A DNA stretch of 49,234 bases from positions 1-49,234 of the forward strand of contig JAFZOW010000110.1 of assembly GCA_017552715.1 (NCBI GenBank). Direction: 5' to 3'. Of the stretch, positions 8,082-25,434 are shown in pieces. The DNA comes from Lachnospiraceae bacterium. GTDB taxonomy: Bacteria > Bacillota > Clostridia > Lachnospirales > Lachnospiraceae. Position 1 is the stretch's first letter. Each line of letters starts with the position of its first letter. The notes beneath the pieces are model-generated. The model was not told the origin of the DNA. It worked only from the letters and a program-made list of their open reading frames with translations, and ran no database searches. Position numbers and translations under genes: made by a program.

Positions 8082-8300
8082 GGAAATACATGTGAAGCCG
8101 CTCGCCGGTTCCGTTCACCTCGCAGCATTCTGTGGCCGGGAATGAACTATATGCTTTGCCCGGCACCGGTCGGGACGCTGCATCCCTGCATCGGCCCTCC
8201 CTCACAGCGCCTTCCATGGCGCTGTGTGCCTGCGGTATCTATCCCGGCCACGAAGCTGCGGGTTCACTCCAAGGCTACGCGGCTTTCACATGTATTTTCC
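8082..8300. repeat. Long imperfect hairpin 1 of the 8-kb element
   Basis: The left arm (8082-8141) and the right arm (8242-8300) are about 60 nt each and are imperfect reverse complements. The best-matching blocks are GGAAATACATGTGAAGCCG (8082-8100) against 8280-8300, and GTGGCCGGGA (8132-8141) against TCCCGGCCAC (8242-8251). The loop region contains a further hairpin around CACAGCGCC and GGCGCTGTG (about 8203-8226). Confidence 0.7.
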
Positions 8301-12034: not shown

Positions 12035-12772
12035 ATGCATTACTATGTTATGACTCTTTTTCCGGAGCTGATCGAAAAGGGGATGAATACCGGTGTGCTG
12101 TGGCGTGCCATGGAGGAAGGGATCATCTCGCTGGAGTGCTTTCATATCCGGGATTATACGGCAAACAAGCATAAGAGGGTGGATGATTATACCTACGGCG
12201 GCGGTGCCGGGATGCTCATGGCCTGCCAGCCCATATGGGATACCTGTCTGGCGGTGAAGGAACGTATCGCACAGAAAGCTTTGGAGGAGGGCCGGGTGGC
12301 ATCTGCGCCCAGGGTGATCTACATGAGCCCTCAGGGGCGGGTGTTCGATCAGGCCTTTGCCGAAGAGCTTTCCAAAGAGGAGGATCTGGTCTTTCTCTGC
12401 GGTCATTATGAGGGGATCGATGAGAGGGTGCTTGAGGAAGTGGCAACGGATTACCTTTCCATCGGCGATTATGTACTGACGGGCGGAGAACTGCCGGCCC
12501 TGGTGGTGATGGACTGCGTTTCCCGTCTCCTGCCGGGGGTGCTCAATAATGACGAGTCTGCCGAGACCGAAAGCTTTACGGAAGGGCTGCTGGAGTATCC
12601 CCAGTATACGAGACCGGAGGAATGGATGGGGAAGCGGGTGCCGGAGGTGCTGCTTTCCGGACACCATAAGAACGTGGATAACTGGAGGCTGGAGCAATCC
12701 CTGAAGAGGACGAAGGAACGCCGGCCGGATCTGTATGAAAAATACATCTTAAGCCACGGTGGTGACAAGTGA
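12035..12772 (+). CDS. trmD: tRNA (guanine-37 N1)-methyltransferase TrmD
   Basis: 245 residues. The start MHYYVMTLFPE is typical and is preceded by GGAAGGA inside the end of rimM. SPOUT motifs include YTYGGGAGMLM, CGHYEGIDERV and IGDYVLTGGELPA, and the C-terminal helix carries RRPDL. TrmD makes m1G37 in tRNAs with G36, such as the tRNA-Pro(AGG) found in this window, and prevents frameshifting. It ends the rimM-trmD unit; the next gene has its own promoter. Confidence 0.98.
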   Translation: MHYYVMTLFPELIEKGMNTGVLWRAMEEGIISLECFHIRDYTANKHKRVDDYTYGGGAGMLMACQPIWDTCLAVKERIAQKALEEGRVASAPRVIYMSPQGRVFDQAFAEELSKEEDLVFLCGHYEGIDERVLEEVATDYLSIGDYVLTGGELPALVVMDCVSRLLPGVLNNDESAETESFTEGLLEYPQYTRPEEWMGKRVPEVLLSGHHKNVDNWRLEQSLKRTKERRPDLYEKYILSHGGDK

Positions 12773-12789
12773 GCATCGGGCGAAATAAA

Positions 12790-12818
12790 TTGACATAAAA
12801 GCCGAAAAAAGGTAAAAT
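12790..12818 (+). promoter_or_regulatory. Promoter of the kinase/FHA island
   Basis: TTGACA (12790-12795), 17-bp spacer, TAAAAT (12813-12818). It lies between trmD and the kinase gene, and I found no comparably good promoter until 22850, so the seven genes may form one operon. Confidence 0.75.
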
Positions 12819-12858
12819 AAACTGATCTGTTTTCATTTGTTTTTCGGAGGGGAGCGGA

Positions 12859-15600
12859 ATGATGGACAGCGAAAAATACCCTTTGGCGCTGCCGCAGGGA
12901 ACGGTACTGGCCGGTCAGTATATCATTGAGAGAGTTCTGGGGCAGGGCGGCTTTGGGATCACATACGCTGCAACAGATCATAAGACGGGAGAGCGGGTAG
13001 CCGTCAAGGAGTTTTTCCCCGATTCTATGGCTACGCGAAGCGCCACAACGGTCCTTCCTTTTACCGGGGAGCGGGGGGACAGTTTTTCCTACGGCAAAGA
13101 CTGCTTTCTGCAGGAAGCCGAAACTCTTGCCCAGTTCATAGGCAACGAGAATATCGTACGTATCCACAACTATTTTGAAGAAAACGGCACGGCCTACTTC
13201 GTCATGGATTATGTCGAGGGGACCAGCTTTGACCAGTATATACGCGAACACGGCGGCAAGGTGAGCTTTGAGGAGGCGGAACGGTTCCTGGTACCGGTGA
13301 TGGACGCTCTGGCCGCGGTTCACAGCAAGGGGATCGTTCACAGGGACGTGACCCCCGATAATATCTATATCACTAAAGACGGCGTGGTGAAGCTTCTTGA
13401 TTTCGGAGCTGCCCGCTACAGCCTGGGGGATAAGAGCCGCAGCCTTGATGTGGTCTTAAAGCACGGCTTCGCCCCGAAGGAACAGTATACGAGACGTGGC
13501 AGACAGGGCCCTTACACCGATGTGTATGCCCTGGGTGCCAGTTTTTACTATGCGCTGACCGGTAAAAGGCCCCCCGATTCCGTTGAACGTATGGATGAGG
13601 ATGACCTGGTACCGCCTTCCGTGCTGGGAGTGAAGATCGGTGAGGCTCCAGAGCAGGCGATCCTGCAGGCTTTGAGTGTGCAGCCTGCCGACCGCTTCCA
13701 GACCATGACGGCTTTCAAGAACGCCATGAAGGAGTCGGATATCATCGAAGCACGGACCCAGGCCGAGAACGCCATGGGCAGGACTGTGGCCCAGACCCCG
13801 GGGGTTACCCAGCAGAAGTTCTTTACGGCTCCCCAGCCTCAGGCGGCGCCCATGCAGCCTCAGGCAGCTCCTGTGAATTCGGGGATGCAGCCTCAGGCGC
13901 CTCAGATGAATGCTGCCGGAACGGGAATGCAGCAGCCTGCCGCAGGAACGGCTTTCGGCGCTTCGCAGCCGGTGGTGCACACGGGTTACGGGGATCAGCA
14001 GCTTACGGGACACACGGCGGCTTTCATTCAGGAAAGAGCGCAGGGAACGGGAAATACACAGTTTGGCAACGCAGCCCCGGGAGGTACGCAGTACGGAACC
14101 CCGGCTGCCGGGAATACGCAGTTTGGTGCCGGAGTACCGGGAAGTACATCGTATGGGACCCAGGCAACGGGAAGCGGACAGAGCTTTGCCGGAAGCCCGG
14201 TTCAGAACAGCAGACAGTTCCAGGTGCCGCCGCCGCTTGATAATCCTCAGGCAGTTTCGCCCTATCCTCCCCAGGGGGGACAGGTAAAGAAAAATAACAC
14301 CGGACTTATTGTGGGTATCGTGGTGGCGATAGTGGCACTGCTTGCAGTAGTCGGCGCGGGTATCTTCTTCTTTAACCGGCCTTCGGATGATGACGATGAT
14401 ATCAGTCTGGCTTCCATTGATGATGAAGAGCCTACAAAGAAACCGACGCCCACTCTGGTTCCCGCAGTACCGGCGGACCCCACACCCGCGGAGGTGATCA
14501 TCGATCCGGAACCCACGGCCGAGCCCACTCCCGTACCCGTCCGGGCTCTGGAGACCTATCCGAAGCTTCTGGGAAACTATAATAATGCACAGAACGGGGG
14601 CTATATCTGCTGCACCGATGCGGGGGATGCGTTCTTTTATGTGGAAATGAATGAGAACCAGCTGCTTTATAACGACGGATCGGATGAGATCATCGTGCAT
14701 GACAATTTCTGCTGGGGACTGACCATGGTGGACAAAAGGCTGTATTTTGTCTCCACGGACGGCTGCTACAGCTGTAAGGAAGACGGCAGTGACAAGCAGC
14801 GTATCGATGTGCTGGATGATTTTGAGGTGGATGATCTGTATATATCCAAGGATTATTACTTTGTTTATACGCTGAACATCGATGATGACGTATCGAACCG
14901 CACTTCCCTGCTTCATGTTATAGGCCGGGAGGACGGAGTGGTCCGGGGGATAAAGATCTTCGGCTATCAGGATGGGGATGATGATTACGGCAGTGACCAG
15001 TTCACCATCGCGAAGGACGGTTATCTGTACTATCTGCTGCGGTCTAAATACGGATACACCTATGATGAAGATGCGACCTACGGTCTGTGGCGGGTTCCGG
15101 CCGGGGATGTCAATGCTGATCCGGAGAACCTTATGGTGGGGGCTGATTCTGATGTGATCTATCGCCAGATCGTTTCGGAAGGCAATTATGTATATGTGCT
15201 CTTTGACACCGCCAAAGGAAGCAGCGGTATCGTGATGTTCGATATAAGAGAAGATAATTATACGGACGGACACAAATTTGACGGCAGCTGGGATGTGGAA
15301 AAATATTATATCCAGTCCATCAATGTGAGCAATCAGACCGTTTATGCGGTTGTGGATGTCAAAGTGCGTTCCGTAAAAGAGCTCTGGTCCATCTATGCCG
15401 ATGTCGGGAACGATACCTGGAACGGAAATACCATGCTGAGCATGGATCAGAATGCCAGTGTCTGGGGACTTGCACTGGATAGTACCGAGGACGGCCAATA
15501 TGCTCTTTATATGGAGTATTATGAGGGCTGCAGGATGGGCTATATTTCAATAACGGACGGACAGGATAAAGGATATATCTTTGACAGTACTGTGAGATGA
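12859..15600 (+). CDS. Transmembrane Ser/Thr protein kinase with large extracellular sensor
   Basis: 913 residues. Kinase domain about 20-290: glycine loop GQGGFG (28-33), ATP lysine K50 in VAVKEF, catalytic loop HRDVTPDN (161-168) with Thr where the usual HRDLKPxN has Lys, and DFG 181-183. Then comes a Gln/Pro/Gly/Thr-rich linker (about 300-475) with repeats such as NTQFGnAAPG, one TM segment (481-505), an acidic D/E patch, and a Thr/Pro-rich stalk. The C-terminal part (about 565-913) is beta-rich with repeated Y-F/Y-V strands and Cys pairs, and may be a propeller-like sensor. It differs from PrkC, which uses PASTA repeats. The GGAGGGGAG site precedes ATG 12859. It would phosphorylate island proteins, probably the FHA partners. 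Confidence 0.9.
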   Translation: MMDSEKYPLALPQGTVLAGQYIIERVLGQGGFGITYAATDHKTGERVAVKEFFPDSMATRSATTVLPFTGERGDSFSYGKDCFLQEAETLAQFIGNENIVRIHNYFEENGTAYFVMDYVEGTSFDQYIREHGGKVSFEEAERFLVPVMDALAAVHSKGIVHRDVTPDNIYITKDGVVKLLDFGAARYSLGDKSRSLDVVLKHGFAPKEQYTRRGRQGPYTDVYALGASFYYALTGKRPPDSVERMDEDDLVPPSVLGVKIGEAPEQAILQALSVQPADRFQTMTAFKNAMKESDIIEARTQAENAMGRTVAQTPGVTQQKFFTAPQPQAAPMQPQAAPVNSGMQPQAPQMNAAGTGMQQPAAGTAFGASQPVVHTGYGDQQLTGHTAAFIQERAQGTGNTQFGNAAPGGTQYGTPAAGNTQFGAGVPGSTSYGTQATGSGQSFAGSPVQNSRQFQVPPPLDNPQAVSPYPPQGGQVKKNNTGLIVGIVVAIVALLAVVGAGIFFFNRPSDDDDDISLASIDDEEPTKKPTPTLVPAVPADPTPAEVIIDPEPTAEPTPVPVRALETYPKLLGNYNNAQNGGYICCTDAGDAFFYVEMNENQLLYNDGSDEIIVHDNFCWGLTMVDKRLYFVSTDGCYSCKEDGSDKQRIDVLDDFEVDDLYISKDYYFVYTLNIDDDVSNRTSLLHVIGREDGVVRGIKIFGYQDGDDDYGSDQFTIAKDGYLYYLLRSKYGYTYDEDATYGLWRVPAGDVNADPENLMVGADSDVIYRQIVSEGNYVYVLFDTAKGSSGIVMFDIREDNYTDGHKFDGSWDVEKYYIQSINVSNQTVYAVVDVKVRSVKELWSIYADVGNDTWNGNTMLSMDQNASVWGLALDSTEDGQYALYMEYYEGCRMGYISITDGQDKGYIFDSTVR

Positions 15601-16883
15601 AGAGAAAAAGACAGCCGGGCCTGAGCACCGGCTTGACGATATTGCTGAGCCTTCTGGCACTTTCCATGATCCTGCTGGTGGTGCTTGCGGTAGTACTCAG
15701 GCATAAGGGACAGACGGAAGATGAGCCGGGGGAAGTGACAGTACATGAACTGCCTTCGCCTGCGGTGGATATAACAGCGGCACCCACGAAAGCTGTAGTC
15801 CGGGATGACAGCGCGGTTTCGGCGGATAAAGCGGAAAAGAAAGTCTTAAATCCCACACCCGAATTGCTGGGAAAGCCGAATAATGCGGGCAGCGGAGCTT
15901 TTTTCTGTGTTACGGACAGCGGTGACGGACTGTTCTATACGGATATGGATGCAAAACAGCTTCGCTGTGTGAGCGGGGAGCACTATAATGTGGTGCAGGA
16001 AGGGATCTGCCGGAGCCTTCAGGAAGCGGACGGCCGCATATATTACGTTTGCGATGGAAAAGCCTACAGCTGTGCCGAAGACGGAAGCGGTGCAGCGAGG
16101 ATCGAAAGCCTGGCAGCTTATAAAGATCTGTACAGTGTATATATCTCTGCCGAATATCTCTACGGCTATGAGCTTGTGACGGGAGATGCACCGGAGGACC
16201 GGCGCGGGAGGCTTACGGCTGTAGCCCGTCAGGATGGGAGCTATATGGGCAGCCTTACCCTGGGATATGAGTTCGGGGACGGGGATAAGGGACTTAAGCA
16301 GTTTGCTTTCGGGCAGAACGGTTATCTGTATTATATACTACGTTCCGACGACGGCATATATTACGATCCCGAGGCAATGGATCATATCTGGAGACTGCCT
16401 GCAGGCGATCTCTATGCGGAACCGGAATCGGTGATCTATGCACTGGACAGAAGGCTTTCTTACAAGCAGCTCCTTTGCGAGGGCGGAAAGCTCTACGTGC
16501 TTTACGAAAATCGTGACGGGAACAGCGCACTGACCATGTATGATACGGAGAATGATGCCATACTGGCAGATCATTACTGGCCCAAGGATAAATTCACTTT
16601 TTCCGAAGTCAGTGTGATGGACGGAGTGCTTTATCTGGCGGTAAACGATTATGCGGAAAGCCAGAAGGTTGTCTGGTTCCTTCGTACGGATGATACGGAA
16701 GATGCCTGGATGGGGCGGGAGCTCCTGCGGCTTGAAGCCGGCTGGGAGCTGGATTACCTTTCGCCGGAGCACACAGCCAGAGGGAAGTATCTGATGTATG
16801 TATGCCGGGATGCGGACGGCAATATGAAGTTGGGATATGCATCCTTTAAAGATGCTGAAGATCAGGGGATCTTGATCGAATAG
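15597..16883 (+). CDS. Kinase-less paralogue of the kinase ectodomain, membrane anchored
   Basis: 428 residues: a short basic N-terminus, one TM segment (about 12-35), a linker, and a domain homologous to the extracellular part of the preceding kinase. For example TPELLGKPNNAGSGAFFCVT corresponds to the kinase's YPKLLGNYNNAQNGGYICCT, and WRLPAGDLYAEPE to WRVPAGDVNADPE. It overlaps the kinase stop by 4 bp (ATGA), which implies translational coupling and near-equal production. No catalytic motif is seen. It could act as a co-receptor, a decoy or a dimer partner of the kinase. Confidence 0.85.
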   Translation: MKRKRQPGLSTGLTILLSLLALSMILLVVLAVVLRHKGQTEDEPGEVTVHELPSPAVDITAAPTKAVVRDDSAVSADKAEKKVLNPTPELLGKPNNAGSGAFFCVTDSGDGLFYTDMDAKQLRCVSGEHYNVVQEGICRSLQEADGRIYYVCDGKAYSCAEDGSGAARIESLAAYKDLYSVYISAEYLYGYELVTGDAPEDRRGRLTAVARQDGSYMGSLTLGYEFGDGDKGLKQFAFGQNGYLYYILRSDDGIYYDPEAMDHIWRLPAGDLYAEPESVIYALDRRLSYKQLLCEGGKLYVLYENRDGNSALTMYDTENDAILADHYWPKDKFTFSEVSVMDGVLYLAVNDYAESQKVVWFLRTDDTEDAWMGRELLRLEAGWELDYLSPEHTARGKYLMYVCRDADGNMKLGYASFKDAEDQGILIE

Positions 16884-16906
16884 AGAATCAAAGGAGGAAA
16901 AAAGAA

Positions 16907-17761
16907 ATGGCATTGCAGGAATGCGGAAACGGACATCTCTACGACGCGAGCATGTATCCTTCCTGCCCGTACTGCAGCGGCGGGATCAACCGTGTTGAAT
17001 TCGGCGGCGGCGGAAGCGGCGTAGGTGCCACGGTTGCCGGTAGCGGCTACGGCGGGGCCCAGGGGGGCTACGGCGGAGGTTACGGTGTGGGTGCCACGGT
17101 TGCGGGAAGCGGTTACGGCGGAGCCCAGGGCGGTTACGGCGTAGGTGCTACAGTCGCGGGGAGCGGCTATGGCGGAGGCCAGGGAAATTACGGCGGGATG
17201 CCTGTTGATTCCGGTATCGGGAAGACGGTAGGCGTCGGAATGGCGGCGGCTTCGGCTCCGTCCGGACCTGCGGATGTAGGTTCCACCATCGCACCTGCTG
17301 CATACCGAGCCAAACAGCAGGCAGACGATGCGGATACCGGAAAGACCGTGGGTGTGATGCAGAAGCATCTGAGCGTTGATCCCGTGGTGGGCTGGCTGGT
17401 CTGCATCAGCGGTGCCGAAAAGGGAAAGGATCATCGTATCTATGCCCGTAACAATACCATCGGCCGCAGCGAGAAGATGGATATCTGCATTAAAGGGGAT
17501 TCCGCTATCTCCAGAGAGAATCATGCGCGTCTGTCTTATGATTCGAAGCACAATGCCTATCATCTGATCCCGGCGGAAAGTGCCAATAATATCTACCTGA
17601 ACGAGGAACCGGTCTACGTACCGACCAAGCTTGCTGCCCACGATGTGATCGAATTCGGGGAGAGCCGTTTCATGTTCATCCCGCTCTGCGACGACTGCTT
17701 TACCTGGCAGGACGGCCTGAAGAGCGGCGAGACGAAGAAGGTGGAAGAAGATGGGGAATGA
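16907..17761 (+). CDS. Zinc-knuckle/FHA adaptor with repeated GxTV motifs
   Basis: 284 residues, no signal peptide. Residues 6-23 form a C-x3-H-x9-C-x2-C knuckle (CGNGH...CPYC). Residues 31-100 hold three glycine-rich repeats, each with GVGATVAGSGYGG. Further related motifs follow: GKTVGV (107 and 147) and GSTIAP (127). Six Thr residues (42, 64, 82, 107, 127, 147) therefore sit in a G-x-T-V/I context. The C-terminal FHA domain (about 161-260) keeps R187 (IGRS), S202 and H206 (ISRENH) and N227-N228. The layout parallels GarA/OdhI-type substrates, where a Thr-containing tail is phosphorylated and read by an FHA domain. It is probably a cytoplasmic substrate of the kinase. AAAGGAGG precedes the ATG. 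Confidence 0.85.
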   Translation: MALQECGNGHLYDASMYPSCPYCSGGINRVEFGGGGSGVGATVAGSGYGGAQGGYGGGYGVGATVAGSGYGGAQGGYGVGATVAGSGYGGGQGNYGGMPVDSGIGKTVGVGMAAASAPSGPADVGSTIAPAAYRAKQQADDADTGKTVGVMQKHLSVDPVVGWLVCISGAEKGKDHRIYARNNTIGRSEKMDICIKGDSAISRENHARLSYDSKHNAYHLIPAESANNIYLNEEPVYVPTKLAAHDVIEFGESRFMFIPLCDDCFTWQDGLKSGETKKVEEDGE

Positions 17762-18557
17762 AGCCGTACTGCCTTTAAGTCCCAGGCCGAAGATCGAGAA
17801 GAAGCTGGGTTATCGTATCGCCAATCTTCAGGGAGTCGGTGCCAGGGCCAGACAGGAGGATTCCTTTGCCGTCAGTAATGCTTTTGATGTGATGAAGATC
17901 TGGGATGAAGGTCTTTTTATCACGGTATGCGACGGTATGGGAGGTATGAGGGACGGAAAGCTTGCCAGTGAGACGGCCATCCAGAGCTTGCGGAATTCCT
18001 TTGCGGAAATGGACCGGCAGGGGGATCTGGACGGACAGCTGGAGAGAAGCATACGTCTGGCTTCCCGGGAAGTGGAAGCGGTCATAGGCGGTGACGGAGG
18101 CTCTACGGTGGTTGCAGGCATCATCTATAAGGAAAGGCTTTCCTTTGCCAGTGTGGGAGACAGCTATTTCTTCCTTTACCGGGATGGGGTACTGAACCGG
18201 CTGAACCGCGAGCATAACCTTTGCCAGCAGATGTTTCTGGAAGAGGTACAGGACGGCAGCATGGAACAGAAGAATTACCGCGAGATGGACGAGGCGGTGG
18301 CACTGACCCAGTTCCTGGGGATGATCGGTATGGACGATGTGGATGCTTCCTACAGGCCTTATCCCTTAAAGGAGGGAGATATACTGCTGCTCTGTTCCGA
18401 CGGGGTCGGCGGAGTGCTCTCCGAAGAAGAGATCATCCGGGCCTTATCCCTTAAATCCGAGCAGGCCATGTGCCAGCAGCTGGAACAGGGACTTGTGGCT
18501 CATGCAAAGCGTAATCAGGATAACTATACCGCACTGATCGTAAAGTGTGTGTATTAG
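17751..18557 (+). CDS. PP2C-family Ser/Thr phosphatase (first of two)
   Basis: 268 residues. PPM/PP2C motifs: RQEDSF (metal Asp 37), VCDGMGG (D61-G62), SVGDS (135-138), CSDGVGG (D217-G218) and QDNYTAL (D257-N258). All metal-binding positions expected of an active Mn/Mg phosphatase are present. It overlaps the end of the FHA gene by 11 bp, so the two are translationally coupled. It is soluble, with no membrane segment. It would reverse kinase phosphorylation. The start ATG 17751 begins MGNEAVLPLS; the N-terminal 20 residues are an extension before the phosphatase fold. Confidence 0.92.
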   Translation: MGNEAVLPLSPRPKIEKKLGYRIANLQGVGARARQEDSFAVSNAFDVMKIWDEGLFITVCDGMGGMRDGKLASETAIQSLRNSFAEMDRQGDLDGQLERSIRLASREVEAVIGGDGGSTVVAGIIYKERLSFASVGDSYFFLYRDGVLNRLNREHNLCQQMFLEEVQDGSMEQKNYREMDEAVALTQFLGMIGMDDVDASYRPYPLKEGDILLLCSDGVGGVLSEEEIIRALSLKSEQAMCQQLEQGLVAHAKRNQDNYTALIVKCVY

Positions 18558-18644
18558 TTGATGCGGCAGCCGCAAACCGGTGAGGGGGAACGGTCCGCAG
18601 CATCAAAAAATAACAATGTAAAAAAAGAAAGAGAGGGAAAAAAG

Positions 18645-20213
18645 ATGAGAAGAAAACTGTCCCGTGCTTTCGGCATCGTATGGACGTTACTGCTGCTGCT
18701 TTCCACGCTGCAGGCAACGAAGATCGATGCCCAGGCCTTTGACAACAGCAGCCGTGAAGGCGTGGTGGCTGTGGTCATGTACCTGAAGAACGTTACGGTA
18801 TCACGTACCTATGACTGGTGGGATTACCAGCGTGTAGGGACTTATTCCGAGCTGGAGTATTCCGGCGGCAGCGGCTTCTTTGTGGGTGAGAAAGGGGAGA
18901 ACCCCAGCTACATCGTAACGGCCGCACATGTGGTGGAAGATTACTACAATTCCGGAGAAGGCGCAGCCATCTCCATGGTGGTGGGTATCTATATTGATGA
19001 AGAGGGTTACTACTACGCCCTCTGCCTGGATGCCGACAGCGCCGAGCTCCGTATCTACTACGGTGATAACGATTATGACATTGCTTATGTGGACTGCATC
19101 GGAAGCTCCGAGAAGGTTGACCTGGCGGTGCTCCGTCTGCGCAATGCCACCGGCAAGCGTCGTTCCCTGCCTGTAAAGAAGGCGGACGATTCCATGGTAG
19201 GTTCCACCGTTTATACCATCGGTTTCCCCGGAAGCTCCGATAATATGCTTACCGGTGCCAGCCATTACGGCCTGGAAGATGCTACCGTAAAGAACGGTAT
19301 CATCAGTAAGCTGGCTGTAGAGAGCGGTGTGGGTGTGGAGCGTATCCAGACCAATGCCCAGGTGGCTCACGGCGATTCCGGCGGACCCATGGTCACGGAT
19401 GACGGCTATGTTATCGGTGTTAACACCAACAAGGTGACCACCCAGAACGGCGAGCTTGATGTTGAGACAGACTATTATGCAGTGAGCGGCGGCGAGCTGA
19501 TCCGCTTCCTGGATAAGAACAATATTCCTTATTCCACAGACGGCGATCCGGTTCCGACAAAGGGCAGTGATAACGGCGATGACGGGGATGATGTCGAAAA
19601 GCCCAAGCCCAAGGAAAAGGAACCTGAGCCCAAGGGCGGAATGAGCACCGGTCTGCTTATCGCCATCATTGCAGGCGCAGTGGTTGTGGTCGGCGGTATC
19701 GTGGCCCTGATCATCGGACTGGTTTCCAGCGGGAAGAAGAAAGAGCAGGCTGCACAGCAGCAGGCCCAGTTACAGATGGCCCAGGTGCAGGCCAATGCCC
19801 AGGCTCAGGTAGCCCAGGCACAGGCTCAGGCCCAGCAGGCCCAGGCTCAGGCCCAGGCAGCGGCGGCACGTGCCAATGCACAGCCTCAGAAGAAACCCAT
19901 GATGCGTTCCATGTCGGCACAGCACAACGGCATGACCATCGCACTCAGCTCCGCACCTGTCATGATCGGCCGCGATCCTGCCACCTGCAAACTGGTGTAT
20001 AAGGAAGGCACGGCCGGTGTCAGCGGACGTCACTGCCAGATCGCATTCGATCAGGCCAGCGGTGATTTCCTGATCACGGATCTGCGTTCCACTTACGGAA
20101 CCTTCCTGATGAACGGTCAGAAGCTGAATGCCAATGTACCTTATCATTTAAAGAGCGGTGAGAGCTTCTATGTAGGTGATCCTGCCAACGTGATCAAGGT
20201 GGAGCTGGGCTAA
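18645..20213 (+). CDS. Signal peptide-trypsin-like protease-TM-FHA protein
   Basis: 522 residues. Signal peptide about 1-29. A chymotrypsin-fold (HtrA-like) protease spans about 35-290, with complete triad H95 (VTAAHVV), D159 (EKVDLAVL) and S245 (AHGDSGGP). A Lys/Pro/Glu-rich stalk, a TM segment (about 335-361), an Ala/Gln-rich repeat helix (about 367-412) and a C-terminal FHA domain (about 431-520) follow. The FHA keeps R443 (IGRD), S460/H463 (VSGRH) and STYGT. Predicted topology is protease outside, FHA inside. No PDZ domain is present, unlike HtrA. Start at 18645 is set by GAGAGGGAAA 5-13 bp upstream and by the signal peptide beginning there. It may cleave surface or secreted partners under phosphothreonine control. 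Confidence 0.9.
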   Translation: MRRKLSRAFGIVWTLLLLLSTLQATKIDAQAFDNSSREGVVAVVMYLKNVTVSRTYDWWDYQRVGTYSELEYSGGSGFFVGEKGENPSYIVTAAHVVEDYYNSGEGAAISMVVGIYIDEEGYYYALCLDADSAELRIYYGDNDYDIAYVDCIGSSEKVDLAVLRLRNATGKRRSLPVKKADDSMVGSTVYTIGFPGSSDNMLTGASHYGLEDATVKNGIISKLAVESGVGVERIQTNAQVAHGDSGGPMVTDDGYVIGVNTNKVTTQNGELDVETDYYAVSGGELIRFLDKNNIPYSTDGDPVPTKGSDNGDDGDDVEKPKPKEKEPEPKGGMSTGLLIAIIAGAVVVVGGIVALIIGLVSSGKKKEQAAQQQAQLQMAQVQANAQAQVAQAQAQAQQAQAQAQAAAARANAQPQKKPMMRSMSAQHNGMTIALSSAPVMIGRDPATCKLVYKEGTAGVSGRHCQIAFDQASGDFLITDLRSTYGTFLMNGQKLNANVPYHLKSGESFYVGDPANVIKVELG

Positions 20214-20216
20214 AAA

Positions 20217-20939
20217 ATGAAATTTGATCTGTATAAATATACAAATCAAGGCGGTCGCAGCTATAACGAGGATTCCGTCGCCTCCCGAACCGAGGGAGAC
20301 GAGGGGATCTTCGTCGTGGCCGATGGCCTTGGAGGCCATGCCCATGGTGAGCTGGCCAGTAAATGTGTCTGTGATACGCTTACGGAAGCCTGGCATCCCG
20401 GGATCGAAGATCCTGCAGCCTGGCTTTCGGAGAATATCGCGGAGGCAAACCGCCGTGTCCTGGAACTGCAGAAGGAAAAGAACTGCGTGATGAAGAGTAC
20501 GGCGGTGGTCTTGCTGATCGCCGGTAATTCTGCCCGCTGGGCACATGTCGGGGATTCGCGTCTTTACTATATACACGACGACAGTATCAGCTTTATCACC
20601 GAGGATCATTCCGTGGCCTATAAGAAATACAAGGCCGGTGAGATACGGCGCAGCGAGATCGCAAAGGATGAGGACCAGTCCCGTCTGCTGAAGACCCTGG
20701 GGAGTGAGGAACGCTACGAGGCACAGCTTGGGCCGGAGGGTATCGAGCTTACACCCGGAGATGCATTTCTGCTCTGTTCCGACGGAACCTGGGAGTTCGT
20801 GCATGACGAGGAGGTCGACATCGACTATCTGAAAGCCCGGAACGCAAAGGAATGGTCGGAGTGGATGCGCTTGCGCATCATCGACAGGATGCCGGGAGAC
20901 AATGATAATCTTACGCTGCTGACACTGATTTGCAGCTGA
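20217..20939 (+). CDS. PP2C-family Ser/Thr phosphatase (second of two)
   Basis: 240 residues. Motifs RSYNEDS (D19), VADGLGG (D36-G37), HVGDSRLYYI (111-120), LLCSDGTWE (D189) and GDNDNLTLL near the C-terminus show an intact PP2C catalytic set. It starts 4 bp after the protease-FHA gene. It differs clearly from the first island phosphatase: it is shorter at the N-terminus, and reads VADGLGG instead of VCDGMGG and SDGTWE instead of SDGVGG. It is therefore not a recent duplicate. Two phosphatases in one island may serve different phosphorylated partners. Confidence 0.92.
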   Translation: MKFDLYKYTNQGGRSYNEDSVASRTEGDEGIFVVADGLGGHAHGELASKCVCDTLTEAWHPGIEDPAAWLSENIAEANRRVLELQKEKNCVMKSTAVVLLIAGNSARWAHVGDSRLYYIHDDSISFITEDHSVAYKKYKAGEIRRSEIAKDEDQSRLLKTLGSEERYEAQLGPEGIELTPGDAFLLCSDGTWEFVHDEEVDIDYLKARNAKEWSEWMRLRIIDRMPGDNDNLTLLTLICS

Positions 20940-20952
20940 ACGAGGAGGCATT

Positions 20953-22842
20953 ATGAAAAGACTTAGGATAGCTGCTGCGGCACTCGCACTGATCCTGTGC
21001 TTTAGCGAGGTTCTGCCGGTGTTTGCAGCCGGGGATGGCGAGGTGGAGCTGATCTCGGCCTACTGCATGGGCGATGCACTCTATGCGCTGGTCAGTATCG
21101 ATGATAATTACAAGGCAAGCAGCTTTGATGTGTCGCTGAAGTCGGATAAAGTCAGCGCCAGCGATACGGCTACACCCCAGGCGCTGGGTTTTAAGAATGC
21201 CAAGGTGAATTATCTTTTCCTGGTGGAGGCATCCGAAGCCATGGAAAAGGAAAAGGATTCGCTGATCGCTTTTCTGGATAAGCTGGACAGCGTAGCCGGC
21301 GACAGAAAACTGGGTCAGCGCTATGTCCTGGCCAGTTACTCCGATGATTTTTCCATTGAGAAAAAGAACTGTACCGATTATTACAGCCTCATCGAAGCTC
21401 TGGATAAGATCGATTATGACGGGGGTGAGGCAGATCCGTACAACGGTATCGTCGGAGCCTATGAGTGGCTGGAAAAGAACGACGACCGTGCTGCCGGTGA
21501 ACCCTGGCATGTGGTGCTCCTGGGTACGGGTATCGATCTCGGAAATGCTTCCCAGTGGCAGGCGGCTCAGAAGATCGAGAACAGCCCGGAGGTGATCTTA
21601 AGCAGCCTTGTGGTGGGCGAATGGAGAAACGGCAAGCTCACTATCAGTAAGGGGCACGGAGAGTACATGGAAGCCGCAAATGAGCGTGCTGCCGAAGATG
21701 CCGGTGAAGAATTCGCCCAGTGGGCGGATGATATGTATCTTCTTGAGTTCTTCCTTGATAAGGCTCCGGAAGAGGCTGTAAGCTTTGAACTGGATTTCGG
21801 AAGCGGCAAGGATATGAACGGGGATACGGTGCGGATCAAGGATAATCCCGGGATCAGCGGCGTGAAGGATCTGGAAGCGATCGATGCCGCTGGCGGAGAG
21901 GAAGATCCGACACCCACCGAGCCGGAAGAAACGCCCACACCGGAAGCTACTCCTACTCCGGAGGAAGGAAATGTTCCGGGACAGGATGGAGGAGATCCTA
22001 CGGAGGAAGCCAAGCCCACGGAAGAGACGAGTAAGGACGACGACAAGGACGAGGATAAGGACAAAGACGAGGACAAGGATAAAGATAAAGATAAAGACAA
22101 AGATAAGGACAAAGACAAGGATAAGGATAAAGATAAAGAGGACGACGAGGATGAGGACGACGGACTTCCCGCCTGGGTCATTCCCGTTGTCATCGGAGCA
22201 GCAGTAGCTCTTCTGATCCTTATCATCGTTGTGGTACTGGTGGTTGCGGGCAGCAAAAAGAAAAGGAAGGCAAGTGTCTATCCCGTACAGAACCCGGCCC
22301 CGATGCCGCAGAGTATGCAGGCACAGGCAATGCAGCCTCAGGCAATGCAGCCCCAGCCGATGGCGGAAGCTTCCGGCGAGACATCCACGCTCACACCGGA
22401 TGTTCCTCCCGCAGATGCCATAGGAGTTACAGTGGCTGCGGCCGCAGCGGATGCTATCCCTCATACGGAAGAGCCGGATCGCGAGAACAGCCTTCAGGAT
22501 GCCGCAGCCGTTGCGGCAGGTTCGGGTATCGATGAGAACCGTCCCGGAGCCGTTGAGATGAAGCTGGAGGTTTATGCCGGCAACTGCATGCGGGGAAGCA
22601 ATCAGCTGTATCTTCTGGACAGTATGACCATCGGTTCTTCCGATTCCTGTGATCTGAGATTTTCCGATCCGGGCGTCGAGGGTGTCCATGCCCGTATCTA
22701 TATCGAGAACGGGAATGTGATACTGGAGGATCTGAGTAACAGCGGGATCCGTCTGGGTGGCATGCGTATCCAGAGCCACAACCCGCTGCGCAGCGGAGAC
22801 GTGCTGGATATAGGTGAAGCGGAATTCGGACTTAAGTGGTAA
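20953..22842 (+). CDS. Signal peptide-vWA-like-TM-FHA protein
   Basis: 629 residues. Signal peptide 1-26 (cut after VFA). A vWA-like domain spans about 85-290. Its MIDAS-like start reads LVEASEAM, where the canonical form is D-x-S-x-S, so metal binding is doubtful. A Thr/Pro/Glu linker and a highly charged Asp-Lys repeat (361-396) lead to a TM segment (about 407-433). Inside are a Met/Gln/Pro-rich linker and a C-terminal FHA domain (about 536-629). That FHA is degenerate: IGSSDSCDLRF lacks the usual Arg, and GVEGVHARI has Glu-Gly where Ser-Arg is common. It may therefore bind without phosphate. It is the last gene of the island, 13 bp after the second phosphatase. Confidence 0.87.
   Translation: MKRLRIAAAALALILCFSEVLPVFAAGDGEVELISAYCMGDALYALVSIDDNYKASSFDVSLKSDKVSASDTATPQALGFKNAKVNYLFLVEASEAMEKEKDSLIAFLDKLDSVAGDRKLGQRYVLASYSDDFSIEKKNCTDYYSLIEALDKIDYDGGEADPYNGIVGAYEWLEKNDDRAAGEPWHVVLLGTGIDLGNASQWQAAQKIENSPEVILSSLVVGEWRNGKLTISKGHGEYMEAANERAAEDAGEEFAQWADDMYLLEFFLDKAPEEAVSFELDFGSGKDMNGDTVRIKDNPGISGVKDLEAIDAAGGEEDPTPTEPEETPTPEATPTPEEGNVPGQDGGDPTEEAKPTEETSKDDDKDEDKDKDEDKDKDKDKDKDKDKDKDKDKDKEDDEDEDDGLPAWVIPVVIGAAVALLILIIVVVLVVAGSKKKRKASVYPVQNPAPMPQSMQAQAMQPQAMQPQPMAEASGETSTLTPDVPPADAIGVTVAAAAADAIPHTEEPDRENSLQDAAAVAAGSGIDENRPGAVEMKLEVYAGNCMRGSNQLYLLDSMTIGSSDSCDLRFSDPGVEGVHARIYIENGNVILEDLSNSGIRLGGMRIQSHNPLRSGDVLDIGEAEFGLKW
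22033..22140 (+). repeat. Asp-Lys coding repeat in the vWA-FHA gene
   Basis: Near-perfect reiteration of GAT/GAC-AAG/AAA codons encodes alternating Asp-Lys (residues 361-396). The 6-bp periodicity makes it prone to slippage and copy-number change. At protein level it would be an extended, highly charged stalk just outside the membrane. Confidence 0.9.
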
Positions 22843-22849
22843 AAATCTC

Positions 22850-22878
22850 TTGCATTTTTCGTCCGTATATGGTAAATT
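22850..22878 (+). promoter_or_regulatory. Promoter of rplS
   Basis: TTGCAT (22850-22855), 17-bp spacer, TAAATT (22873-22878), about 85 bp upstream of the rplS start. Confidence 0.6.
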
Positions 22879-22887
22879 AATCAAGTT

Positions 22888-22936
22888 GCGATATTAGGAG
22901 ATGTTCCTCTGGCGATATCATCGCGTAAGAACATCC
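22888..22936 (+). promoter_or_regulatory. Probable ribosomal-protein L19 leader structure
   Basis: GATGTTC (22900-22906) pairs with GAACATC (22929-22935), enclosing an inner GCGA/TCGC hairpin (22912-22915, 22921-22924). A structured leader ahead of rplS, thought to bind L19 for autoregulation, is known in Firmicutes. Position and hairpin fit; I cannot align it to the family model by eye. Confidence 0.5.
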
Positions 22937-22962
22937 GATGACTATCACAGGAGGATAAGGAA

Positions 22963-23313
22963 ATGAACGCAGAGATCATCAAAGAGATCGAAGCCGAACA
23001 GCTCAAGAAGGAAGTTCCTTCCTTTAATGTGGGCGACACCGTTAAGGTGCACGGCAAGATCAAGGAAGGCGAAAAGGAAAGGATCCAGGTTTTCGAAGGT
23101 ATCGTGACCAAGATTCAGAACGGTGGATCCCGCACGACCTTTACGGTTCGTAAGTCCAGCGGTGGTGTAGGAGTCGACAAGACCTGGCCCCTGCACAGCC
23201 CCAATGTGGAAAAGGTGGAAGTGGTACGGCGCGGTAAGGTGCGCAGAGCCCGCCTGAATTATCTGAAGGGCCGCGTAGGTAAGAAAGCAAAGGTCAAAGA
23301 GGTTATTCGCTGA
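22963..23313 (+). CDS. rplS: 50S ribosomal protein bL19
   Basis: 116 residues, standard length, with [36 protein letters not shown] and the C-terminal RAKLNYLKGR-type motif (here [18 protein letters not shown]). L19 lies at the 30S-50S interface. AGGAGG precedes the ATG. In most Firmicutes it follows trmD; here the signalling island lies between them. Confidence 0.98.
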
Positions 23314-23374: not shown

Positions 23375-23383
23375 GTGATTAGC

Positions 23384-23968
23384 ATGGCGAAGAAGAAAGG
23401 CTTGACCTTTTATACAAAAGAGAGGAAAATAAACGTCGGGATCTTCAGGGAGATCGCCGGCTGGCTTTTCCTCGGGGTGCTACCGGTACTCGTGGCCTTT
23501 GTGTTCGTATATCTTTTCGGGATACGTACCAGCGTAATCGGTGTATCCATGGAGCCTACGCTTCATGGTGGACAGGAGATCCTGATCGACCGCTTCTCTT
23601 ATCTGGTGAGTGATCCCGGACGCTCCGATGTGGTGGTCTTTCTGCCGAACGGAAATGAAAATGCGCATTACTATGTGAAGCGTATCGTGGGTACTCCCGG
23701 CGATACCGTGCTGATCCGTGACGGGCTCATCTATATCAACGGGGAGATCTATGATGATGCCGGCATCTTTGAGCGCATCGCCGACGGAGGCATTGCGGCC
23801 AGCGGCGTAAGCCTGGGAGAAGAAGAATATTTTGTGCTGGGGGATAACCGTAACGACAGTGAGGATTCACGCTCCAGCAATATAGGTATAGTGAAGCGTT
23901 CTTTTATCATCGGCCGTGCCTGGTTCCATCTGGACGGCGGCGGAGACAGAGCGGGATTTATCAAGTAA
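23384..23968 (+). CDS. lepB: Signal peptidase I (first copy)
   Basis: 194 residues. A cytoplasmic N-terminus and one TM segment (about 25-47) precede the catalytic region: Ser in GVSMEPTLHGG (nucleophile), Lys in YYVKRIVGTPGD (general base), and LGDNRNDSEDSR (box E). This is the type I leader peptidase that removes signal peptides outside the membrane. The start ATG 23384 lies 10 bp after a terminator and shows no Shine-Dalgarno; GTG 23375 is an alternative. It precedes rbgA by one base. A second signal peptidase lies just after rbgA. Confidence 0.93.
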   Translation: MAKKKGLTFYTKERKINVGIFREIAGWLFLGVLPVLVAFVFVYLFGIRTSVIGVSMEPTLHGGQEILIDRFSYLVSDPGRSDVVVFLPNGNENAHYYVKRIVGTPGDTVLIRDGLIYINGEIYDDAGIFERIADGGIAASGVSLGEEEYFVLGDNRNDSEDSRSSNIGIVKRSFIIGRAWFHLDGGGDRAGFIK

Positions 23969-24816: not shown

Positions 24817-25434
24817 ATGTCGGATACGATGGAAGAAAAGAAGAACGAAAGGGAAGAGAGTACGGAAGTAAATAAGGAAAAGGAAGGAAATGACGCGGAG
24901 AAGAAAAACTCCCTGGCCATGGACATCCTGCAGAATTCCATTTTCCTTCTGGTAGTACTGATCATCACCCTGATCCTGGTAAAATATGTGGGACAGCGTA
25001 CCGTGGTGGTGGGGCACAGTATGGAGCCTACCCTGTATAACGGGGACAACCTGATCGTGGACAAGATCAGCTACCGTTTCCGTGATCCGAAGCGTTTCGA
25101 GATCATTGTATTTCCCTTCGAACATAAAGATGAAACATACTATATCAAACGTGTCATCGGGCTGCCGGGCGAGACGGTACGCATCGACGAAAACGGCGTG
25201 ATCTATATCAATGAAAAGGAGCTTTCGGAGAATTACGGGGCCGAGGTCATCGAGGATCCCGGTCTGGCTCTGGAGAGCATCACCCTCGGACCCGGTGAGT
25301 TCTTTGTGCTGGGTGATAACCGCAACCATTCTTCGGATTCCCGTGTTCCTTCCGTGGGCCTGATCCATAAGGAAGATATCATCGGGCGGGCCTGGGTAAG
25401 GATCTATCCCTTTAACAAGATGGGAGGATTTTAA
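24817..25434 (+). CDS. lepB: Signal peptidase I (second copy)
   Basis: 205 residues. A very charged N-terminus (about 1-30, Glu/Lys rich) is followed by one TM segment (about 35-55), nucleophile Ser in VVVGHSMEPTLYNG, Lys in YYIKRVIGLPGE, and LGDNRNHSSDSR. It is clearly a paralogue of the copy at 23384 but divergent in the N-terminal region and in the segment between the lysine box and LGDNR. Having two may give different substrate ranges, as with SipS/SipT in Bacillus. Confidence 0.95.
   Translation: MSDTMEEKKNEREESTEVNKEKEGNDAEKKNSLAMDILQNSIFLLVVLIITLILVKYVGQRTVVVGHSMEPTLYNGDNLIVDKISYRFRDPKRFEIIVFPFEHKDETYYIKRVIGLPGETVRIDENGVIYINEKELSENYGAEVIEDPGLALESITLGPGEFFVLGDNRNHSSDSRVPSVGLIHKEDIIGRAWVRIYPFNKMGGF

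Follow-up and report, generated by a model that had tools for sequence, protein, structure and literature searches.

A conserved operon of a receptor-like kinase, PP2C phosphatases and FHA proteins in a Lachnospiraceae genome, with a predicted link to a surface protease

Several bacterial systems combine kinases, PP2C phosphatases and FHA proteins. PrkC/PknB with PrpC/PstP and FhaA/FhaB bring together a transmembrane (TM) kinase, a PP2C and an FHA protein, and PpkA-Fha1-PppA is the kinase, PP2C and FHA set of type VI secretion systems (T6SS) (PMC6213207, in part; "in part" marks, here and below, a source cited from those of its sections that were available). The nearest published assemblies are the clusters of the type VII secretion systems (T7SS) T7SSc to T7SSj, in which TsxD kinase, TsxF PPM phosphatase, TsxJ FHA and TscE vWA proteins are encoded together, a membrane kinase with an extracellular part is present, and phosphothreonine control was proposed by the authors (PMC11217815, in part). 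The same component types occur in a run of seven genes, here named K1, E2, F3, P4, T5, P6 and V7, in a window of 49,234 nucleotides of a Lachnospiraceae bacterium (assembly GCA_017552715.1, contig JAFZOW010000110.1). A sequence-only reading of this DNA had proposed the seven genes as a candidate transmembrane signaling circuit. We find a real, conserved operon of a known general kind that is apparently undescribed. Judged from sequence, its most informative feature is a conserved threonine motif of the FHA protein F3, which that reading had overlooked, although it had recognized the kinase/PP2C/FHA operon.

All seven open reading frames (ORFs) were confirmed on the forward strand (Table 1). 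The domain content ascribed to them earlier (a kinase, a copy of its ectodomain, an FHA protein, two PP2Cs and a protease-TM-FHA protein) agrees with Pfam searches of the seven proteins and with hydropathy, E2 alone having no Pfam family. The genes are as closely packed as had been said: from K1 to V7 the successive gaps are -4, +23, -11, 0, +3 and +13 bp, and thus range from -11 to +23 bp. K1 retains the catalytic motifs VAVK, HRDVTPDN and DFG. The two phosphatases, which share 25% identity, both keep the DG, GDS, SDG and DN motifs (DGMGG in P4), and P4 scores 111.6 bits with the NCBIfam model Stp1, under its cut-off of 230. By hydropathy, K1, E2 and T5 each have a single TM segment and V7 has two, of which the first is signal-like. 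Its single TM segment would place the protease of T5 outside the cell and the FHA domain inside. T5 probably starts at the internal ATG at 18645; the signal segment that follows was read by eye and lies below the hydropathy threshold. The C-H-C-C segment of F3 is predicted to bind zinc.

Table 1. Features of the operon and their positions in the window
Feature	Positions	Strand	Description	Evidence
Promoter-like site	12790..12818	+	TTGACA-17-TAAAAT, upstream of K1	11/12 consensus matches
K1	12859..15600	+	Ser/Thr kinase (aa 22-240), cytoplasmic linker, TM (aa 478-508), ectodomain; 913 aa	Pfam PF00069 4.2e-34; hydropathy
K1 linker motif GRTVAQ	13777..13794	+	Candidate phosphothreonine site	Motif class as F3 T147
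E2	15597..16883	+	Membrane-anchored kinase-less copy of K1 ectodomain; 428 aa	32% identity over 383 aa
F3	16907..17761	+	Predicted C-H-C-C zinc ribbon (C6, H10, C20, C23), linker, FHA; 284 aa	Pfam FHA 3.1e-11
Codon of F3 T147	17345..17347	+	Conserved linker threonine (GKTVGV)	15 residues before FHA core
P4	17751..18557	+	PP2C-type phosphatase; 268 aa	Pfam PP2C_2 9.3e-9
T5	18558..20213	+	Signal segment, trypsin-like protease (predicted outside), TM, FHA (predicted inside); 551 aa	Trypsin_2 1.6e-20; FHA 4.5e-12
P6	20217..20939	+	Second PP2C-type phosphatase; 240 aa	Pfam PP2C_2 4.9e-15
V7	20953..22842	+	Signal segment, vWA-like region, acidic stalk, TM, linker (GVTVAA), degenerate FHA; 629 aa	FHA 1.4e-12

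The operon was compared with the best 80 of at least 484 confirmed F3 relatives (at least 588 candidates, one genome per species), located by a scan with the F3 alignment. Because the 80 loci were chosen for similarity to F3, co-occurrence among them presupposes an F3-like gene; many of them are fragments at contig edges, and organisms are named after their record titles. Domain labels come from home-made profiles, those for WXG100 and EssC being seeded from ORFs of genome G017 picked by eye, and one profile-labeled kinase (L110) has no Pfam match. ORFs were called mechanically with a choice of starts that favors overlaps, and ambiguous residues were set to A in the inputs to the hidden Markov models. 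The sets that we used overlap, as L042/L156, L089/L150, L092/L186 and L096/L190 look like the same records.

A kinase is present in 67 of the 80 loci, a zinc-ribbon FHA (Zn-FHA) protein in 62 (by pattern), a PP2C in 71 and two PP2Cs in 54, while FHA is fused to a trypsin-like protease in 59, to vWA in 31 and to PrsW in 8. If these types are written as K (kinase), Z (Zn-FHA), P (PP2C), T (trypsin-FHA) and V (vWA-FHA), the contiguous same-strand order Z-P-T-P, which is that of F3-P4-T5-P6, is found in 39/80 loci, K-Z-P-T-P in 28 and K-Z-P-T-P-V in 11. The gaps are operon-like: the median is -2.5 bp between the F3 and P4 types (n = 50) and 3 bp between the T5 and P6 types (n = 52). The window itself has the K-Z-P-T-P order, with a Zn-FHA protein bearing a T147-like threonine, two PP2Cs and a trypsin-TM-FHA protein, and with E2 standing between K1 and F3. 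The sequence-only reading would have been refuted by genes that occur together in this genome alone; six of the genes escape this, as they recur in order elsewhere, but E2 does not, since among the loci examined it occurs in this arrangement in the window only. The recurring core, which we call the kit, has six genes rather than seven.

Most titles of the 80 loci name Lachnospiraceae, Oscillospiraceae or their genera, many of them from the rumen or gut, and a few name Comamonadaceae, Rhodoferax, Gammaproteobacteria, Muribaculaceae or Roseithermus. The records L188, L191, L192 and L197, which contain Zn-FHA or trypsin-FHA relatives, bear the titles Comamonadaceae, Roseithermus, Gammaproteobacteria and Rhodoferax; contamination of these is possible. 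In a count anchored on the phosphatase, P4 relatives at E ≤ 1e-24 occur in 35 of 397 family genomes, the window's own included. The 35 neighborhoods around the matches other than P4 itself contain a kinase together with an FHA protein in 28 cases, a Zn-FHA protein in 25, two PP2Cs in 23, a vWA-FHA protein in 17 and a trypsin-FHA protein in 11; all component types are present in five and no FHA protein in four. The closest P4 relatives belong to genomes G114, G147 and G194, and in G114 the gene order is the same with a PrsW-FHA protein at the position of E2. The vWA region of V7 and the ectodomain of K1 each match solely their own genome and G114 among 120 family genomes.

The threonine T147 precedes the FHA core of F3 at a distance that is conserved in most of its relatives. 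In an alignment of 20 Zn-FHA proteins chosen from 35, T147, C6, H10, C20, C23 and the FHA arginine R187 are invariant (20/20). Among the 62 proteins with a recognizable core (one of 63 was dropped), 56, F3 included, carry T-[VIML]-[AGSP] 13-18 residues N-terminal to it, in nearly every case at a distance of 15, and five of the six exceptions, read by eye, still have a threonine at -15 or -16. The patterns that found the 80 loci do not contain this threonine. The Zn-FHA linkers hold 182 motifs against 26.2 ± 4.5 in shuffled sequences, and F3 alone has six copies of a related motif. In a looser first set, the motif lies within 40 residues before the core in 22 of 33 Zn-FHA proteins, compared with 3.4 in shuffles (two of 35 proteins, in which no core was recognizable, were dropped).

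FHA domains that bind phosphothreonine do so with the motifs GR, SxxH and NG (PMC1262709, in part). The GR arginine is kept in 61/61 T-type, 62/63 Z-type, 8/8 PrsW-type and 6/6 kinase-FHA domains. The view that the FHA proteins of the operon are phosphothreonine readers fits F3 and T5, predicted readers in whose types the binding arginine is nearly invariant, but not V7, in which the arginine is replaced by serine and the serine by glutamate. As its FHA domain lacks the phosphothreonine-binding arginine, V7 is probably no reader. V-type FHA domains are mixed in this respect: 11 of 31 in the 80-locus set have the arginine and one more a lysine, and 15 of 20 in an earlier set have the arginine and one a lysine. 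The four domains of the earlier set with neither residue are those of the window, G114, G147 and G194, and three of the four also lack the serine and three the histidine. Docking that does not depend on phosphothreonine has been described for the FHA domains of EssC (PMC11217815, in part). The vWA-like label given to V7 is less firm than its FHA part, since the VWA_2 match reaches 21.3 bits, under the cut-off of 27. Read by eye, its metal ion-dependent adhesion site is degenerate (VEASEAM; E-x-S-x-A), and among 31 V relatives this site reads D-x-S-x-S in 26, D-x-S-x-A in one and D-x-S-x-G in one, and is missing in three.

The protease of T5 appears intact: in an alignment of 61 T-type proteins, made up of T5 and 60 others from the 80 loci, the triad residues H124, D188 and S274 are conserved in 60, 60 and 61 proteins, respectively. 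Of 11 multi-TM FHA proteins that were scanned in related kits, seven are fusions of FHA with PrsW (L042:8587-10062, L089:11271-12668, L092:7095-8519, L094:14200-15591, L095:12192-13679, L108:5556-6950 and L115:12207-13592). PrsW is an intramembrane protease otherwise known for the cleavage of an anti-sigma factor. Because relatives fuse FHA to this second type of membrane protease, protease control is the likeliest output of the operon.

The input side is variable. For the ectodomain of K1, Pfam yields no family at a threshold as loose as E ≤ 5. A profile of this ectodomain and its relatives matches beta-propellers (3s25 at 1.1e-15, and designed propellers), whereas a profile restricted to E2 and the ectodomain of K1 gives no credible structure match, and for that reason a propeller fold is a suggestion. 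Among ten kinases scanned the ectodomains differ: three have DUF5050, one LRR, one MORN and one a sub-threshold pectate-lyase-like match, and when 57 ectodomain pieces, including a few short stubs, were compared with one another, 27 found no relative at E ≤ 1e-4. HRD-like and DFG motifs are present in 99 of 102 kinases of the 80 loci and, by a stricter pattern, in 55 of 67 of the earlier set. In a nine-row tree, the ectodomain of E2 is the sister of that of K1. No counterpart of E2 was found in the earlier or the 80-locus set, save an ORF truncated by a contig end (L133:3-836). E2 occupies the position where a second kinase often stands in other loci (25 K-K neighbors among the 80), and it is most simply a local duplicate without the kinase domain. 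Tandem threonine repeats (SQTMP/SQTIP, QETVFA) in the juxtamembrane linkers of three other kinases (L146:395-3091, L124:4976-7441 and L044:5544-8405) look like multi-site phospho-docking arrays.

The window genome encodes four further kinases. One of them, on contig C119 (G000, L003:7248-9635), has TPR repeats in its ectodomain and a kinase domain 76% identical to that of K1, and a second trypsin-TM-FHA protein lies near the end of contig C132 (L002:8109-9614). Both possibly share the kit.

The reading that we put forward, as quite possible though short of probable, is that of an envelope signaling operon in which K1 would phosphorylate F3, F3 and T5 would recognize the marks through their FHA domains and the PP2Cs would remove them, with the gathering or release of a surface protease as the output. 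K1 would be a receptor-like kinase sensing some extracellular cue through its ectodomain, and E2, lacking a kinase domain, would serve that ectodomain as decoy or partner. Once active, K1 would act on [K/R/Q]-T-[V/I]-[G/A/P] threonines, namely T147 and the further copies in the F3 linker, the threonine of its own juxtamembrane linker and perhaps that of the V7 linker; the C119 kinase may be a second writer. With the marked threonine 15 residues ahead of its own FHA core, F3 could be a switch that either closes on itself in the manner of GarA/OdhI or binds a neighbor and builds clusters. Since the protease of T5 is predicted outside and its FHA domain inside, phosphorylation inside the cell would recruit T5 through phosphothreonine and so gather or release the protease at the surface. 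V7 may be a membrane scaffold that docks without phosphothreonine, and P4 and P6 would remove the marks. The single circuit proposed earlier is plausible, but a unit of seven genes is not supported. We consider it doubtful, but worth stating, that such kits form a separate class of transmembrane signaling, in which exchangeable ectodomains (DUF5050, LRR, MORN, TPR) feed a constant phosphothreonine kit that exerts FHA-mediated, inside-out control over membrane proteases (trypsin-TM-FHA and, in relatives, PrsW-FHA), with the Zn-ribbon FHA protein assembling through the marked threonine of a neighbor.

A number of observations weigh against the envelope signaling reading. In the 80 loci, no flanking family points to a target: members of the commonest (14 loci) are opposite-strand ORFs almost all within the kit, and the next (9 loci) is ABC ATPase-like. 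Neither of the two other genomes of the genus shows a relative of P4 at E ≤ 1e-24, and the system is therefore dispensable there. T147 does not align with the phosphosites of GarA/OdhI at what we take to be their positions, several of the 33 Zn-FHA proteins of the first set have no threonine at -15, and the FHA domain of V7 cannot serve as a normal reader. In motif counts, kinase linkers exceed shuffles in total (71 vs 34.2 ± 5.6), but the totals are driven by a few repeat-rich proteins, and per protein the enrichment is weak (34/88 vs 25.7 ± 3.9, and 13/49 vs 6.3 ± 2.1 in the earlier set). V linkers hold 20 motifs vs 4.7 ± 2.1 in the 80-locus set, in 8 of 25 proteins, but are not above shuffles in the earlier set (4 vs 1.7 ± 1.3). 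Because kinase domains (155 vs 85.8 ± 8.9) and V ectodomains (76 vs 53.8 ± 6.9) exceed shuffles too, an excess over shuffles does not by itself identify phosphosites. What speaks for T147 as a candidate site is its fixed position and conservation, not enrichment. The T linkers (6 vs 5.0 ± 2.3) and the PP2Cs (92 vs 88.7 ± 8.7) are at chance, which we count in favor of the reading.

Of the other explanations, the least unlikely makes F3 a soluble switch of the GarA/OdhI type, whose unphosphorylated FHA domain holds a cytoplasmic enzyme, with T5 and V7 as side branches and the surface protease not the main output. Actinobacterial GarA and OdhI are FHA proteins with a phosphorylatable threonine before the FHA domain, as in F3 (PMC10415282, in part; see also PMC2784874). 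They are also the nearest solved structures to the Zn-FHA profile (E 1.9e-7 and 4.3e-7), and F3 gives weak matches to the NCBIfam models OdhI and FhaB. The known switch works by phospho-dependent intramolecular closure. The conserved threonine of F3 is likewise N-terminal to its FHA domain, but the OdhI match reaches 22.6 bits against a cut-off of 200, and F3 differs in having a zinc ribbon, several threonine motifs and a threonine at another distance. GarA and OdhI are linked to oxoglutarate dehydrogenase and F3 to membrane proteases: no recurrent flanking family looks metabolic, whereas T-type proteins with a conserved triad occur in 59/80 loci. We regard this switch as unlikely. There may also be no single circuit, the operon being shared while K1, the PP2Cs and the FHA proteins work in separate pathways with PrkC and the C119 kinase. 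The four further kinases with the close relative of K1 among them, and the second trypsin-FHA protein on C132, would suit such an arrangement, but we give it little credence, since in many species the gene order is fixed and the gaps are short.

A tie to secretion or defense was weighed in the same way. The seven genes could be a detached controller of a T7SS-like machinery that is encoded elsewhere or lost. The T7SSc-j loci hold kinases, PPM phosphatases, FHA and vWA proteins (PMC11217815, in part). Looser kits adjoin WXG100 genes in G012 and G143 (G332 has a weak match), the G017 kit lies beside WXG100/EssC-like ORFs judged by eye and by home-made profiles, and in G095 a WXG100 gene is found about 16 kb from a looser kit. 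Yet the window genome has no WXG100 match at E ≤ 0.001, none of the 80 loci has a WXG100/EssC-like gene within reach, and WXG100 is about equally frequent in genomes with the kit (13/35) and without it (10/37, a group that may include genomes with looser kits; G017 was excluded). A present-day controller is thus very unlikely. The sequence-only reading had seen no secretion-system structural gene, which agrees with these results for the operon itself, but because some looser kits adjoin WXG100 or T7SS-like genes, a secretion link is possible for the wider kit family, and so is an ancestral tie to T7SS. No more probable than a present-day controller is a defense or growth-arrest module like KKP or PD-T4-6, in which phage attack frees a kinase activity restrained by the PP2Cs. 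K1 does match the PADLOC kinase models PD-T4-6 (7e-53) and mad6 (9e-49), and KKP is a kinase-kinase-PP2C defense module with an FHA-bearing kinase (PMC11341870, in part). However, K1 lacks the cold-shock and FHA domains that define KKP, which excludes membership in that group. PADLOC matches are limited to the kinase domain of K1, the protease domain of T5 and the PP2C domain of P6, with none for E2, F3, P4 and V7; these are single common domains of unrelated systems, so a PADLOC defense assignment was rejected as well. No megablast match of the island was found in plasmids, and T5, the one protein of the seven searched for in phages, gave two matches, which cover its protease domain only. Together with a G+C content like that of the flanks (54.6% vs 53.6%), this led us to reject a recent mobile element.

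A promoter scan of positions 12600-23100 gave 11 sites compared with 7.1 ± 2.8 in shuffles, the one in Table 1 being the best. Since this best match lies directly upstream of K1, a single transcript for the seven genes is likely. The earlier claim of one good promoter in front is qualified by the second-best match (10/12; 20881-20909), which falls at the 3' end of P6 and 43 bp upstream of V7; V7 could have its own promoter. The flanking genes look like housekeeping genes, which we take from their sequences to be ffh, rimM and trmD upstream and rplS downstream. Further downstream, two presumed signal-peptidase-like ORFs (23375-23968 and 24817-25434) stand on either side of an ORF for a presumably YlqF-like GTPase. 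A TwoAYGGAY RNA lies on the minus strand at 8115-8266 (68.9 bits, gathering score 43). In another locus (L138:10001-19684), the kit shares a stretch with ffh, trmD and rplS in a different arrangement, which hints that its position in this neighborhood is old. An array of about eleven FHA proteins, including vWA-FHA and kinase-FHA forms, together with a PP2C, was seen at L043:1809-16973.

Against the systems named at the outset, the operon stands apart in several respects. As the sequence-only reading had argued, the PrkC model does not fit a kinase without PASTA repeats: Pfam finds none in K1, and the NCBIfam model NF033483 (PknB_PASTA) gives 151.4 bits against a cut-off of 450. The best-scoring kinase of the genome is on contig C77, beside an ORF that looks PP2C-like by eye. 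Equally, none of the seven proteins is a secretion-system structural component by Pfam and NCBIfam, in keeping with the absence of WXG100/EssC-like genes from the 80 loci. Membership in the T6SS threonine phosphorylation pathway was rejected, as none of the seven is a T6SS structural protein, the rest of the genome not having been searched for T6SS genes; the FHA domains of T5 and V7 score 26.5 and 34.9 bits with TagH (cut-off 120). The FHA proteins of the island differ from those of the T6SS pathway in carrying a zinc ribbon or an outside protease or vWA part, and no T6SS genes are in the set. Membership in T7SSb-j was rejected too, given that WXG100 is missing from the genome and that no EssC-like ATPase stands beside the set; none of the seven genes encodes an FtsK/EssC-like ATPase, and no search aimed at an EssC elsewhere in the genome was made. 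T7SSc-j have both the EssC/TsxC ATPase and WXG100, and the words "zinc" and "trypsin" do not occur in the main text of their description (PMC11217815).

Three more distant systems share parts of the kit. Actinobacterial GAP1-N2 neighborhoods bring together genes for a kinase with a zinc ribbon, for a PP2C and for a vWA protein, but are tied to GTPase conflict systems, and the available sections mention neither an FHA adaptor nor a TM-FHA protease (PMC7159879, in part). The nearest Zn-FHA/vWA pair in the sources cited is that of the archaellum regulators ArnA and ArnB, a zinc finger-FHA protein with a vWA partner, served by the Hanks-type kinases ArnC and ArnD and by PP2A; they differ in being archaeal and controlling motility, the zinc finger of ArnA is of the four-cysteine RanBP2 type, and no TM-anchored protease or TM-FHA protein is mentioned in the part available (PMC6509490, in part). 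Among the systems compared, KKP is the closest kinase-phosphatase module for which a function has been measured; it has two kinases and a PP2C with FHA involved, and many related kits likewise have tandem kinases, but it is Gram-negative, mostly prophage-borne and has a cold-shock-domain kinase, and the accessible text mentions no protease, vWA or Zn-FHA protein (PMC11341870, in part). A trypsin-TM-FHA protein appears in none of the compared systems as far as their available sections go, and the literature searched, mostly freely accessible texts, holds no description of this operon. It yields named predictions (T147 of F3 as phosphosite, F3 and T5 as readers, V7 as non-reader, P4 and P6 as erasers), by which the signaling targets of non-PASTA receptor kinases in gut Clostridia become testable with a few purified proteins. 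If a separate signaling class did exist here, it would be a bacterial counterpart, in its logic, of plant receptor kinases. Kinase, PP2C and FHA sets as such are known; what appears new compared with them is the conserved coupling to a predicted surface protease through TM-FHA proteins.

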